Below, one piece after another: positions 7,468-15,023 of a stretch of DNA of 64,000 bases (the stretch's first letter is position 1; every line of letters starts with the position of its first letter). The notes beneath the pieces are model-generated. The model ran no database searches. It was not told the DNA's origin and was given only the letters and a program-made list of their open reading frames with translations. The DNA comes from Jatrophihabitans cynanchi (lineage in GTDB: Bacteria > Actinomycetota > Actinomycetes > Mycobacteriales > Jatrophihabitantaceae). The translations under genes and the position numbers were made by a program. The DNA lies in the NCBI RefSeq assembly GCF_027247405.1, contig NZ_CP097463.1, positions 2,790,001 to 2,854,000 of the forward strand, read 5' to 3'.

Positions 7468-7473
7468 GTGGGC

Positions 7474-8634
7474 ATGGCGTTGACCGAGGCCCGCAAGGCG
7501 GAGCTGACCGAGAAGATCCAGGCGCGCGAGCGGCTCAGCCGCCAGGACGGCGAGGACCTGTACGCGGCCGACGACCTCGCCTGGCTGGGCGGCCTGGCCC
7601 ACGGCGTGCGCACCGAGAAGAACGGCGGCACCGTCTTCTTCAACGTGAACCGGCACCTGAACCTGACCAACGTGTGCACGGCGTCCTGCGCGTACTGCAG
7701 CTTCCAGCGCAAACCCGGGCAGAAGGACGCGTACACGATGCGCGTCGAGGAGGCCGTCGCGCTCGCGTCCGCGATGAAGGGCGACGGGCTGACCGAGCTG
7801 CACATCGTCAACGGGCTGCACCCCACGCTGCCGTGGAAGTACTACCCGCGGGTGCTGCGGGAGTTGAAGGCCGAACTGCCCGGTGTGGCGCTCAAGGCGT
7901 TCACCGCCACCGAGGTGCACTTCTTCGAGGAGATCAGCGGGCTGAGCGCCGACGAGATCCTGGACGAACTGATCGACGCCGGTCTGGAGTCGCTCACCGG
8001 CGGCGGCGCGGAGATCTTCGACTGGGACGTGCGCAAGCAGATCGTCGACCACAACACGCACTGGGAGGACTGGTCGCGCATCCACCGGCTCGCGCACCGC
8101 AAGGGGCTGCGCACGCCAGCGACCATGCTGTACGGGCACATCGAGGAGCCGCGGCACCGCGTCGACCACGTGCTGCGCCTGCGCGAACTGCAGGATGAGT
8201 CACTGGAAGCGGCTTCCGGCAATTTCAGTGTCTTCATCCCGCTGCGGTTCCACAACGACAACAACCGGCTCTCGCACCTGCCGATGGCCCAGCCCGCGGA
8301 CGTGCTGCGCACCTTCGCCGTCTCGCGGCTGATGCTCGACAACTTCGACCACGTCAAGGTGTTCTGGGTGATGCACGGCCTGTCGACGAGCCAGTTGGCG
8401 CTCAACCACGGCGCCGACGACATGGACGGCTCGGTGGTCGAGTACAAGATCACGCACGACGCCGACCACTACGGGACGCCGGACAAGCTCACCCGCGAGG
8501 ACCTGCTCGAGCTGATCCGCGACGCCGGGTTCCGCCCGGTCGAGCGCAACACGCGGTACGAGATCGTGCGCGAGTACGACGCGCCCGTCCCGCTGGCGGA
8601 GCGACGCGCCGAGCCGCAGGCGGTCTGGGCGTAG
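7474..8634 (+). CDS. mqnE: Aminofutalosine synthase MqnE
   Basis: A 386-residue radical SAM enzyme with the cluster motif C68-TAS-C72-AY-C75 and the family sequences FNVNRHLNLTNVC, NGLHPTLPWKYY and FIPLRFHNDNNRL. MqnE joins 3-(1-carboxyvinyloxy)benzoate, the product of MqnA, with SAM-derived adenosine to give aminofutalosine. MqnA and MqnC are encoded at 17.4 and 19.3 kb, so the pathway is present but split. The downstream DUF4229 gene overlaps the stop codon by one base. MqnC is the related alternative, but that protein is clearly the other radical SAM gene of this window. Confidence 0.95.
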   Translation: MALTEARKAELTEKIQARERLSRQDGEDLYAADDLAWLGGLAHGVRTEKNGGTVFFNVNRHLNLTNVCTASCAYCSFQRKPGQKDAYTMRVEEAVALASAMKGDGLTELHIVNGLHPTLPWKYYPRVLRELKAELPGVALKAFTATEVHFFEEISGLSADEILDELIDAGLESLTGGGAEIFDWDVRKQIVDHNTHWEDWSRIHRLAHRKGLRTPATMLYGHIEEPRHRVDHVLRLRELQDESLEAASGNFSVFIPLRFHNDNNRLSHLPMAQPADVLRTFAVSRLMLDNFDHVKVFWVMHGLSTSQLALNHGADDMDGSVVEYKITHDADHYGTPDKLTREDLLELIRDAGFRPVERNTRYEIVREYDAPVPLAERRAEPQAVWA

Positions 8635-8942
8635 TGACCGTGGCCGAGAAGCACCCGCAGGGCAGCTCGTCGTTCGGTCGGTGGATGGGGTCGATGTGGC
8701 TCTACACGATCTTGCGGTTCGCGCTGTTCTTCGCGCTGTGGGGGCTGATGGTGCTGATCGGGCTGCACGGCCTGGTCGCCGCGTTCGTCGCGCTGTTGCT
8801 GTCGGTGCCGCTGTCGTTCGTGCTGCTCGCGGTGCCGCGGGCCAGGTTCGCCGCCAGCGTCGAGGACCGGCTCAACGCGCGCCGCGAGGATCGCCAGCAA
8901 CTGGACGACAAGCTCGAGCCCGGCGAGGGCGAGCAGAACTGA
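8634..8942 (+). CDS. DUF4229 small membrane protein
   Basis: The 102-residue protein has two hydrophobic helices (about residues 24-43 and 45-66) and a charged C-terminal tail (DRLNARREDRQQLDDKLEPG) likely in the cytoplasm. It matches the actinobacterial DUF4229 pattern. Its GTG start shares one base with the mqnE stop, so it is co-translated with mqnE. Function is unknown; a role at the membrane in menaquinone synthesis is only suggested by position. Confidence 0.8.
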   Translation: MTVAEKHPQGSSSFGRWMGSMWLYTILRFALFFALWGLMVLIGLHGLVAAFVALLLSVPLSFVLLAVPRARFAASVEDRLNARREDRQQLDDKLEPGEGEQN

Positions 8943-12245: not shown

Positions 12246-12847
12246 TCAGGGGCTCACCCGGATCAGGTGTTCGCGGGTGAGGAATGCCTCGGCCAGTTCG
12301 TCCGGCAACCCCGCGTAGGGCGAGGTCTGGGACGCGTGCGCTGCCAGCGCCGCATCAGGTGGTTCGGCAGACACCACTCGTACAGCGGCAGCCCGCTCGC
12401 AGCGGTCGCGGCACGGATCGCCGCCGCAAGATGCAGGTGGTCGGGGTGACCGTCGTCGTCGGCAATCGTGAGCACGACATCCGGACGGGTGGCGACGATG
12501 AGCTTGCCGATGCGCGCGGCAAGGTCGGGTAGCGGCAGGGCGCACAGCGTGCCCGCCGCGATCGGTCCGTCGAACCCGGAGTCCAGCAGCCCCAGCGGAG
12601 GCAGACAGGTGGCACCGAGTGCCGCCGCGGCGGCGTGTAGCTCGGCGTGGCGGACCTCAGCCAGCGTGCGATCGCCGAGGTCGTACCCCGGTGCGAGTTC
12701 GCCGGCTTCGCCCAGCGTCGCGCAGCACACGCTCACCCGGCTGCCGGCCGCGACCGCATGCGCGATGGTCGAGCCGCAGCCGAACGACTCGTCGGGATGA
12801 GCGACGACAACCAGTAGCTGCCCGACGGGCAGCGAGGTCTCCGGCAT
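12246..12847 (-). pseudogene. PIG-L family deacetylase with a frameshift
   Basis: The first 170 codons read as a PIG-L/LmbE zinc deacetylase: VVVAHPDESFGCGST (AHPDE metal motif) and IADDDGHPDHLHLAAAI (HPDH). At about 12342-12346 the frame breaks: after LPNHLMRRW the continuing frame is nonsense, while the -1 frame gives the expected family ending SPYAGLPDELAEAFLTREHL to a stop at 12246. One missing G in a TGG(G) run explains it. The metal-binding core is intact. It is either a genuine mutation or a sequencing error. Relatives deacetylate GlcNAc-type sugars in mycothiol and related pathways. ATG at 12847 fits a leaderless promoter. Confidence 0.8.
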
Positions 12848-12853
12848 CAAGGG

Positions 12854-12909: not shown

Positions 12910-14223
12910 TCATGTCCAGTCGACGGCGTCGTAGGCGGCGCGCAGCCGCGCGCCGAACGCGGGGTCCAGGCCGCCGGCCCAGCTGATCCGGCCGAGCACG
13001 TACTCCGGGAAGTTCTCGCGCCCGCGTGCCTGCGTCCGCCAGCCCCGCACGGCACAGTTGTGCAGCAGCGCGCGCAATGCGTCACGCTCGGGACGCGGCA
13101 GCGCCGGGTGATCGTTGACGACCGCGCCGAGCACCTGCTGCCGTCCGGCCGATCCGAGCACGACCGTCTTGCGCTCGTTGGGCCGGAACCCCTCGGCTCG
13201 CACGACCTCCGCGACCAGCGCGACGAAGCGGCTGCGTGCCGCGCGCAGCGACGGCCCCCCGCTGAAGGTCAGGTCGTCGACATACCGGGTGTACTGCGCG
13301 CCGAACCGCGCGGCCAGACCGGCCAGCCGCCGGTCGAGCGTGAACGCCACCAGGTTCGCGGCGGCCGGTGACGTCGGTGCCCCCTGTGCCAGGTGGGGCG
13401 CGGCCAGCCGCTGCCCCAATCGCCAGTGCGCATCGGGGATTCCGCGCATCGGGACCTGCCGCCACACCGGCCGGGGGACGACCGTGGTCAGCAGCCCGGT
13501 CAGGGTGTGCGCGACAGCCTCGGGTAGGCCCGCGGCGCGCAGCACGCCCCAGATCCGGGCCGCGGTGATCGAGGCGAAGAACGCCTCCAGGTCCATGCGC
13601 ACCACCACGTCGGCCCCGGTGTGCGGCCCGACCGCGGTGCGCACCGAGCGTGCACGCACGCAGCCGTGCGCGGCCGGATGCAACGCGATCGGATCCAGGA
13701 CGTGGTGCAGCAGCCGGCGCTGGATCTCCTTCAACCGCGGCTTGGGTGCCGCGACCAGCCGCACCCCGTCGCGCTTGGGCAGCGTGCGCCACCGGTAGTG
13801 CCGCAACGGCTCGCTCACGCGCCGCTCGAGGGACCGGACGTCGGCGAACCAGGCCAGCTCGCCGGCGTCCACAGCGAGCAGCGCGCACAGCGCGGCCAGG
13901 TCGGGCAGCGGCGTGATCGGCCACGGTGCCCGCCCCATCGCCGTCGGCGTCGGCTCCCAGTGCACGACGCGCGGCGGCCGGCGATGCTGCCACGCCAGCT
14001 GCCAGGCGGGCCGGGTCTGCAGGTAGGCGGCGAGCTCGCGCGGCCGGTCGGCCGGCGGGTCGCGGTACGCGTCGAGCACCTGGTCGACGAGCGCAACCAC
14101 CCACTTCGGCGGCGTCCGGCGGCCGAGCGCGGCGGTCACCTGGGCGCGCATCGCGGGTGGCTGCCACGCGCCGGCCAGCAGCACCGTCGCCAGGCCCGAG
14201 GCGACCTGCTCGCGGCGACTCAT
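12910..14223 (-). CDS. Retron-type reverse transcriptase with N-terminal extension
   Basis: 437 residues from the ATG at 14223. The polymerase domain begins about residue 130: RHYRWRTLPKRDG, APKPRLKEIQRRLLHHVLDP, AAHGCVRARSVRTA, RMDLEAFFASI (first catalytic Asp211), LAQGAPTSPAAAN and YTRYVDDLTFSGG (YVDD, Asp316-Asp317), then GFRPNERKT and QQVLGAVVN. These match retron RTs rather than group II introns (no maturase or endonuclease domain). The 130-residue N-terminal extension recalls the longer myxobacterial retron RTs. The usual VTG motif reads VLG. Eleven bases upstream of the ATG ends a 159-nt RNA with matching terminal repeats, the expected template. A TTG at 14256 is an unlikely alternative start. 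Confidence 0.9.
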   Translation of the reverse strand: MSRREQVASGLATVLLAGAWQPPAMRAQVTAALGRRTPPKWVVALVDQVLDAYRDPPADRPRELAAYLQTRPAWQLAWQHRRPPRVVHWEPTPTAMGRAPWPITPLPDLAALCALLAVDAGELAWFADVRSLERRVSEPLRHYRWRTLPKRDGVRLVAAPKPRLKEIQRRLLHHVLDPIALHPAAHGCVRARSVRTAVGPHTGADVVVRMDLEAFFASITAARIWGVLRAAGLPEAVAHTLTGLLTTVVPRPVWRQVPMRGIPDAHWRLGQRLAAPHLAQGAPTSPAAANLVAFTLDRRLAGLAARFGAQYTRYVDDLTFSGGPSLRAARSRFVALVAEVVRAEGFRPNERKTVVLGSAGRQQVLGAVVNDHPALPRPERDALRALLHNCAVRGWRTQARGRENFPEYVLGRISWAGGLDPAFGARLRAAYDAVDWT

Positions 14224-14233
14224 CGCGGCGCCG

Positions 14234-14392
14234 GCGTGCGGGACGGCGGCAGCCAACCTCTGCCGTGCGCGCCGGTTCCTTCGCGCAGTGAAGAGCTCGG
14301 CGTGCGACGCGATGGTCTGCGTCGAGTGATGCCCCCGGGGTTGCCCCGGAGCGATCGGGAGGTCCCGACCGTCCTGCCGCCGTCCCGCACGC
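14234..14392 (-). ncRNA. Candidate retron msr-msd RNA with 19-nt a1/a2 inverted repeats
   Basis: On the minus strand the RNA begins with GCGTGCGGGACGGCGGCAG (14392-14374) and ends with its perfect 19-nt complement (14252-14234), 121 nt apart. Just after the 5' arm are two short hairpins: GGTCGGG-ACCT-CCCGATC (7 bp with one G-U) and CCGGGG-CAA-CCCCGG. Further on is CGACGC-N8-GCGTCG and GCGCG-N10-CGCGC. Terminal repeats, short 5' hairpins and a position directly upstream of a retron RT are the known msr-msd plan. A -10 box would start transcription within the first bases of the 5' arm. The exact branching G and cDNA ends cannot be set from sequence alone. Confidence 0.72.
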
Positions 14393-14396
14393 GCAC

Positions 14397-14402
14397 ACCC
14401 TA
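14397..14402 (-). promoter_or_regulatory. -10 box for the retron transcript
   Basis: TAGGGT on the minus strand ends 4 nt before the first base of the 5' inverted-repeat arm, so transcription should start within its first two or three bases. Upstream lies a GC-rich palindrome (14411-14422). No consensus -35 is visible. Confidence 0.5.
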
Positions 14403-14429
14403 GCCGCGAACGCGGCGCCGCGAAACGAT

Positions 14430-15023
14430 CTAGAGCGGAACCGACCAGGTGAGCCGCGCGCCGAGCGGATCGTTCGGCTCGATGCCGAACGATCCCCCGC
14501 GCGCCTCGGCGCGAGCCTGCATGTCGGCCAGGCCGCGGCCGCTGGTCGGCTCGTCGTTCGGACCGACCCCGTCATCGGTGACCCGCAGGGTGAGGACGCC
14601 ACCGTCGGTCCTCACCGTCACCGCGAGCGTGCCCGCGTACGCGTGCTTGATCACGTTCGCCAGGGCCTCGCCGAGTACCGCCGCGAGATCCTCGGCCAGC
14701 AGCTCGGGCAGCTCGTCGAGCTCGTCGCCCGCGTCGAAGCGCGGGCTGCAGCCGAGCCGCTGCCCGGCGTCCAGCACCAGCTCGCGCAGCCGCGAGCGCA
14801 CCCCCGCGCTGGCGCCGCGCTGCAGCTCGCGCAGCTGGCCGCGCAGCGTCGCCGCGATCCGCTCCAGCTCGGCCGCCGCCTCACCGACGCGCCGTTGTAC
14901 CTGCGCATCCCGCGTCAATGCCATCACCGAGTCCAGCCGCGCGGCGACCGCCGACAGCGGGGTGAGCACGCCCTCTTGCAGTTGCTGCGCGATCGCTTCG
15001 TGCTCGCTCACGACCTCGTTCAC
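14430..15023 (-). CDS. Histidine-kinase-like ATPase lacking the phospho-acceptor His
   Basis: The protein has 197 residues. The C-terminal half is a HATPase_c domain with the N-box LGEALANVIKHAY, DDGVGPND and GRGLADMQARAEARGGSF, most like DevS/DosT-type sensor kinases. The N-terminal helix SEHEAIAQQLQEGVLTPLSA aligns with the HisKA_3 H-box (E-x-E-x-I-A-x-x-L-H-D-G-V), but the His is Gln here. There are no GAF or membrane domains and no response regulator nearby. It therefore looks like a degenerate or non-signalling ATPase. It follows the monophosphatase gene across a 20-bp tandem duplication and precedes the retron. Confidence 0.75.
   Translation of the reverse strand: MNEVVSEHEAIAQQLQEGVLTPLSAVAARLDSVMALTRDAQVQRRVGEAAAELERIAATLRGQLRELQRGASAGVRSRLRELVLDAGQRLGCSPRFDAGDELDELPELLAEDLAAVLGEALANVIKHAYAGTLAVTVRTDGGVLTLRVTDDGVGPNDEPTSGRGLADMQARAEARGGSFGIEPNDPLGARLTWSVPL

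Follow-up and report, generated by a model that had tools for sequence, protein, structure and literature searches.

A probable two-part retron in Jatrophihabitans cynanchi, with no effector gene recurring beside its RNA and reverse transcriptase in the loci examined

Retrons are typically composed of a reverse transcriptase (RT), a non-coding RNA (ncRNA) and a toxic effector that is held in check by the RT-DNA complex (PMC12548924). Putative retrons in Actinobacteria are already in print (PMC6868368, section 9). The structure that gave the best fold match (E 1.4e-16, 24% identity) to the RT described here, and the best match in a sequence search of the PDB, is that of Ec86 (Eco1; PDB 7v9x/7v9u). 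According to the entry title it shows the retron in complex with an effector, and its RT chain of ~320 residues is without a long extension.

We analysed 64 kb of Jatrophihabitans cynanchi DNA (GCF_027247405.1, NZ_CP097463.1, positions 2,790,001-2,854,000), hereafter the window, whose numbering is used throughout. By its sequence, the region 14392-12910 looks like a genuine retron, formed by an RT and a small structured RNA (Table 1). We consider it likely, with a probability of about 0.8, that this is a chromosomal two-part retron, in which a structured RNA and an RT with an extra N-terminal helical domain occur with no effector travelling along.

Table 1. Features of the retron locus in window coordinates.
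Feature	Position	Strand	Basis
-10 element TAGGGT, 4 nt ahead of a1	14397..14402	(-)	motif; box recurs among relatives
ncRNA (a1-msr-msd-a2), 159 nt	14392-14234	(-)	folding, covariance model
a1, 5' arm, perfect complement of a2	14374..14392	(-)	fold, repeat search, swap test
msr hairpin 1: 8 bp, 4-nt loop, variable among relatives	14352..14371	(-)	fold, alignment
msr hairpin 2: 8 bp, 3-nt loop, strongly conserved	14333..14351	(-)	97.7% of cells paired, 39 sequences
msd hairpin; basal stem 14305-14298 with 14274-14267 (covarying), apical hairpin 14293-14279	14267..14305	(-)	covariation, helices 3 and 4
a2, 3' arm of the ncRNA	14234..14252	(-)	fold, repeat search, swap test
Retron RT, 437 aa	12910..14223 (12913-14223 plus stop)	(-)	RT profiles, PDB sequence and fold matches
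N-terminal helical domain of the RT, ~residues 1-80	13984..14223	(-)	predicted structure

The reverse transcriptase and its class

The RT reading frame opens with an ATG at 14223 and its stop ends at 12910 on the minus strand; an RVT_1 profile search of the 4.5-Mb genome returned it as the single match. An initial annotation of the window had noted YVDD and retron-like motifs in this protein, and both YVDD and, at motif 7, VLG are present. The Y-x-D-D columns are invariant in all 24 aligned members of the RT family, and a strict VTG occurs at motif 7 in four of the 24 (L022, L026, L032, L033); across retron RTs, VTG itself has a frequency of 47% (PMC4244168, section 13). The same annotation assigned the protein to a long-RT type, with VLG in place of VTG and an N-terminal extension of 130 residues. 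The VLG stands, and the extension comes to ~113 residues when measured against the Ec78 RT, where residue 139 of the query aligns to residue 26 of the chain.

Searches with several kinds of model place the protein consistently. Among the best 25 of 51 PADLOC families matched, RT_other (517 bits) and RT_outgroup (501 bits) come ahead of RT_XIII (274 bits) and then of typed retron RTs; the first two match near full length, over residues 3-437 and 4-436 of the window RT, respectively. All 24 aligned family members match RT_other and RT_outgroup at E <= 1e-20, and RT_XIII is also matched by all 24. With NCBIfam, the retron St85 model scored 145.8 bits, below its cut-off of 235, compared with 25.2 for group II and 22.5 for Drt2. 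A PDB sequence search gave 14 matches at E <= 0.001, each of them a retron RT; two are named as such by entry titles. Likewise, a fold search with the AlphaFold2 model of the RT (mean pLDDT 77, pTM 0.59) placed retron RTs at ranks 1-18, and a DRT2 RT with its non-coding RNA at rank 20. The initial annotation had made its reading depend on where the RT would be placed; retron models, sequences and structures score far above other RT classes, and the RT belongs to the retron RT class. Its dN/dS of 0.16-0.31 in eight close, overlapping pairs indicates that it is under purifying selection.

We examined the N-terminal domain separately. When predicted alone, residues 1 to ~80 form five helices with block means of pLDDT between 85 and 92, and in the AlphaFold2 model they are joined to the RT part by a low-confidence stretch. 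No Pfam family was found in the domain of the window RT, and one weak match (E 0.02) appeared in one of 17 members. The best match in a PDB sequence search reached only E 0.036, and a fold search gave nothing at E <= 0.001. VIA-align against 10 chains gave a best Z of 3.9, to the small helical peptide NKR-5-3B, which we took as chance. The domain is present in aligned family members, in which W, LG, P and L positions are conserved; inspection of the alignment by eye revealed no conserved catalytic-looking polar residues. In seven of eight overlapping pairs, dN of the N-terminal part exceeds that of the remainder.

The upstream RNA and its conservation in relatives

The ncRNA lies directly upstream of the RT and ends 10 nt before its ATG. 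The initial annotation had described here a 159-nt segment with perfectly complementary 19-nt termini, followed after the 5' arm by two short hairpins, and both observations proved accurate. Folding, which that annotation had proposed as a check, gives -107.6 kcal/mol, compared with -74.1 +/- 3.8 for 200 dinucleotide shuffles (z -8.8; no shuffle as low). The fold shows a retron-type order: the a1/a2 stem, the hairpin with a 4-nt loop, the hairpin with a 3-nt loop and a longer msd-type region. It agrees with the published retron rules on arm length, hairpin size and order, namely complementary ends of 8-30 nt, one to three msr hairpins of 7-10 bp with 3-10-nt loops, and then a structured msd (PMC6868368, section 6). 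The msd hairpin is expected to be the template core of the cDNA.

By analogy with the motifs given in section 6 of PMC6868368, the G at the inner end of a1 is the putative priming guanosine. Its context is CAGG (14376-14373); by eye, the context among relatives is often CAGG or GAGA and in some cases GGGA. Priming is expected in an NAGN-like context; the contexts published in that paper do not list CAGG. An Rfam search of the whole 64-kb window found no family at the gathering score, and with a relaxed threshold on 14180-14450 the sole match was Pyrobac-1 on the opposite strand (E 4.9), which we regard as chance. A survey of the open-access literature turned up no paper on this ncRNA among the titles and abstract starts listed; an earlier description elsewhere in the literature is possible.

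The TAGGGT box had led the initial annotation to place the transcription start within the first bases of a1. In 17 of 28 diverse relatives a TANNNT box precedes the RNA start by no more than 18 nt, compared with 91 of 8,400 random positions. Because the box recurs upstream of the RNA, transcription probably starts at the first base of a1 or near it.

Relatives were collected from four sources: named genomes (16 loci); 394 genomes belonging to the class, 14 of which, the own genome counted, matched at E <= 1e-40; 41 near-relative genomes (11 at E <= 1e-20, including the own genome and one broken RT); and plasmid records. A search for upstream repeats covered 40 loci, of which 31 with a suitable repeat of differing sequence were taken further. 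Nine were dropped (L013, L015-L017, L024, L029, L038-L040); four of these (L013, L024, L029, L038) were later matched by the covariance model described below. The arms were picked by complementarity, and a random-window repeat test together with a model search outside the training set served as controls. An inverted repeat of this span with a score of at least 15 occurs in 13 of 24 windows upstream of the RT versus 3 of 360 random windows of the same loci; the other 11 of the 24 fall below that score, in part an effect of positioning the windows by the start of the alignment instead of the actual start codon. When arms were swapped among 20 diverse RNAs, the own a2 was the best partner of a1 in 18 (permutation, 0 of 20,000), with a mean duplex energy of -41.7 for own arms versus -23.3 for swapped partners. 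The test was weaker in a version with 40-nt ends and held-out loci, where the own a2 was best in 18 of 25, and in 4 of the 7 held-out loci.

Covariance model R1 was built from the sequences of 20 relatives with an RNAalifold structure. Of 46 loci searched with it, 39 have the ncRNA next to their RT; 20 of the 39 are training sequences, and the others include near relatives of these. Eight diverse loci outside the training set are matched, from Amycolatopsis, Tsukamurella, Dietzia, two Burkholderia and three genomes of the window's class, with E values between 2.7e-10 and 9.2e-4. The seven negative loci are distant RTs (L015-L017, L066, L067) and two pieces of one broken RT (L039/L040); four of the distant ones (L015, L016, L066, L067) gave no R1 match at E <= 1. 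One of these, a Methylobacterium RT (L066:4611-6329), is 40% identical to the window RT along part of the sequence and is encoded in a 573-aa open frame with a long extension. It has no match to the ncRNA model and is possibly a fused retron-like RT.

In the 39-row alignment, 94.3% of cells are paired and both sides of the pair have changed in 17 of 23 pairs; none of five covariation measures was reached by any of 500 shuffles. Since this alignment was fitted to R1, its counts lean towards the model; double changes are already seen in 16 of 23 pairs in a plain MAFFT alignment of the 20. The arms, on whose behaviour in relatives the initial annotation had also staked its reading, are conserved and covary. 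Together, the RNA fold, the covariation and the class of the RT support the retron interpretation that it proposed. We infer that the window retron is functional, with formation of msDNA as a prediction from the sequence.

Neighbourhood, distribution and inheritance

We searched the surroundings of the RT for an effector gene, with a size floor for ORFs of 60-90 aa and flanks of ~2 to 11 kb, as some contigs end early. When ORFs of at least 90 aa were clustered around 37 RT loci (36 and the window), the RT alone was widely shared, and no neighbour was common beyond close relatives and broad superfamilies. The next-largest clusters are antisense shadow ORFs of the RT, broad superfamilies at scattered distances and synteny of the window's family; by eye, the superfamily clusters are acyl-CoA-ligase-like (7 groups), SDR/hydrolase (6) and ABC transporter (5). 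Pfam searches of 100 immediate neighbours (two per side at 25 loci) revealed no recurring effector family. The top family, with four occurrences, is the inositol monophosphatase found where the retron lies in the window's family, which reflects locus synteny. Likewise, no PADLOC family was seen more than twice among the same 100 neighbours, with single matches to, for example, mad1, mad2, mad3 and mad8. Neighbours include housekeeping genes, among them recA, a class-I (C) tRNA synthetase gene and menaquinone genes. In Burkholderia pyrrocinia, the copy lies between an SDR oxidoreductase gene upstream and a carboxypeptidase gene downstream.

Thus, in the loci examined, no effector gene recurs beside RT and ncRNA, unlike the usual retron of RT, RNA and effector. 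Neither a linked effector nor a known fused effector domain, as in the tripartite retrons of types I-XIII, was found; given the consistent absence of a recurring effector, the element counts as a retron variant. The initial annotation had framed the locus in terms of phage defence. A neighbourhood that lacks a recurring effector gene does not indicate such a role.

Of the 24 genomes in the window's family, five have an uninterrupted RT, and all five carry the ncRNA. It is absent from the remaining 19, of which 18 have neither RT nor ncRNA and one has a broken RT only. In four of the five copies and in the broken case, the same inositol monophosphatase gene lies next to the RT or, in the window, one gene away. 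There, a gene for a histidine-kinase-type ATPase (14433-15023, minus strand) stands between monophosphatase and retron; in three copies at the same site (L042, L046, L048) the retron directly follows the monophosphatase. In the fifth copy (genome G402) the RT is found elsewhere, and the monophosphatase site of that genome is without an RT. Together with the monophosphatase, a radical SAM gene and a DUF4229 gene (7468-8942, plus strand) make up a synteny block that surrounds the retron site and is shared by many members of the window's family; we take the radical SAM gene to be of the menaquinone type. Downstream of the RT is a gene for a PIG-L deacetylase (12246-12850, minus strand), in which an apparent frame change near 12350, seen by eye, may be a frameshift or a sequencing error.

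The broken case (L150, genome G400) has RT pieces at 861-1449, one with three stops. They adjoin the inositol monophosphatase gene at the site that the retron occupies in the family, and the genome gives no match to the ncRNA model; this locus is a decayed retron. At three other loci (L014, L030, L038) the ncRNA is present and the RT matches in two reading frames, the result of decay or of assembly error, and at L065 the RT match is lost after residue 392. Broken, two-frame and shortened copies of the RT, among them that of the family member without the RNA, show that the element is dispensable.

The RT tree has 32 rows (L038 was left out), and its outer part is poorly supported. The window's family groups with Geodermatophilaceae (100/99) and is not one clade, as the window and genome G396 lean towards Geodermatophilaceae (92/96). 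Copies from Dietzia and Tsukamurella group with family f2 (100/99). Supported groups mostly track taxonomy, and several copies share one chromosomal locus, a pattern that suggests vertical inheritance of the retron. Two Burkholderia copies nest beside one from the window's order (98/95); transfer thus occurs too.

We also considered an origin from a phage element. The best RT identity was 33% in phage records (12 records) and 35% among the best 80 of 159 IMG/VR matches, and PHROGs gave one polymerase family; we do not consider the retron a phage element. Plasmid records showed RT identities of up to 45% among the matches listed (25 of 79 records). Four plasmid records are family members with the ncRNA: two Burkholderia replicons (0.9 and 1.1 Mb), a 250-kb Tsukamurella record and a 47-kb Dietzia plasmid. 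On the last of these (L065:1211-4298), RT and ncRNA adjoin a mercury reductase gene, one sign of mobility.

Possible modes of action and comparison with known retrons

What the sequence holds, namely the RNA with its conserved fold, the promoter box, a retron-class RT under purifying selection and no recurring linked effector in the loci examined, can be read in several ways. One is that the complementary arms act on the RT gene as its controlling leader or attenuator and do not serve as a template. The position of the segment immediately upstream of the start codon would suit such a role; however, the inner msd and msr hairpins are also conserved and covary, and the layout fits the retron rules in PMC6868368, and we find this reading hardly credible. 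Assignment to another RT-ncRNA defence class, with a DRT or unknown-group RT, is highly improbable: DRT systems likewise pair an RT with an ncRNA, as the DRT2 match in the fold search illustrates, but the St85 score is far above those for Drt2 and group II even though it is below its cut-off, PDB sequence matches are retron RTs throughout, and the RNA has the a1/a2-msr-msd layout.

The absence of an effector could itself be secondary, with RT and RNA as decaying leftovers of a tripartite defence retron. The RT remnants without RNA at the conserved locus of one genome and the two-frame RTs would agree with such a course, whereas the joint retention of RT and RNA over many lineages, strong covariation and purifying selection oppose it, and repeated independent losses of an effector are not expected to keep both parts; we therefore regard it as quite improbable. 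Alternatively, the effector may be fused to the RT, the ~80-residue N-terminal helical domain being a toxin or other effector that is freed when a phage disturbs the msDNA. Fused retron RTs exist, PADLOC models for RT-Toprim, RT-TIR and RT-protease being among the matches; the domain occurs in aligned members with its conserved positions, and no separate effector recurs. Against this, the domain has neither catalytic-looking conserved polar residues nor, in the window copy, a Pfam match or a significant fold match, and it diverges faster than the RT part in most pairs. To our knowledge, the fused effectors of known retrons are all far larger than this domain. An anti-phage retron of this kind is unlikely.

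We thus favour the two-part retron. Its action may be pictured as follows, largely by analogy with other retrons. A single transcript driven by the -10 box would begin at a1, and a1 would pair with a2 in the folded RNA. The RT would bind the conserved msr hairpin 2 and prime at the G that ends a1, and copying of the msd would yield branched msDNA with a cDNA of up to ~80 nt, the distance from a2 to hairpin 2. Host RNase H might then trim the template (PMC6868368, section 6). As no effector gene travels with the retron, the RT-msDNA complex may act alone or control a protein encoded elsewhere in the chromosome, and we favour these two possibilities. The N-terminal domain would be a natural contact for an unlinked partner; both the partner and the job of the domain are guesses. 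More tentatively, the locus may belong to a class of retrons without effectors that is widespread and for the most part inherited vertically. In such a class, RT and msDNA would be a stable component of actinomycete cells that works alone or, through the N-terminal domain, on an unlinked chromosomal partner, and msDNA would have a role independent of guarding a neighbouring toxin.

In this family, selection maintains RT and RNA although no linked toxin recurs, and several genomes have them at one chromosomal locus. This raises the question of what msDNA does alone, and the family offers a clean test system for it. The covariance model and the alignment of 39 msr-msd RNAs are a resource; 37 of the RNAs come from actinomycetes, with several near-identical ones among them, and two from Burkholderia. 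The RNAs are possible starting parts for retron-based DNA production or editing in actinomycetes.

The initial annotation suggested that an actinobacterial retron of this architecture may be undescribed. The RT family is represented in PADLOC and putative actinobacterial retrons are in print, and therefore we do not regard the element as new in kind. PADLOC RT_other (PDLC02949) and RT_outgroup (PDLC03740) resemble the window RT in that the N-terminal extension is included in the match; they differ in being RT profiles alone, with names that give neither type nor effector. In RT_XIII (retron type XIII), ~115 profile positions likewise precede the matching part, but the match is limited to residues 109-433 of the window RT. 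The partner genes of type XIII, which presumably encode ARM and WH-SWIM proteins, are absent among the 18 PADLOC families reported for the 100 neighbours at E <= 1e-5. In the msr, the Ec86 RT requires a stem of 8 bp and a loop of 3 bases (PMC6868368), and the conserved hairpin 2 described here has the same geometry. Retron-Bth1 (PMC12548924) is likewise a retron without an apparent effector gene; it is a single case, in an extrachromosomal assembly and with a group II intron in its RT, whereas the arrangement described here extends over a whole family.
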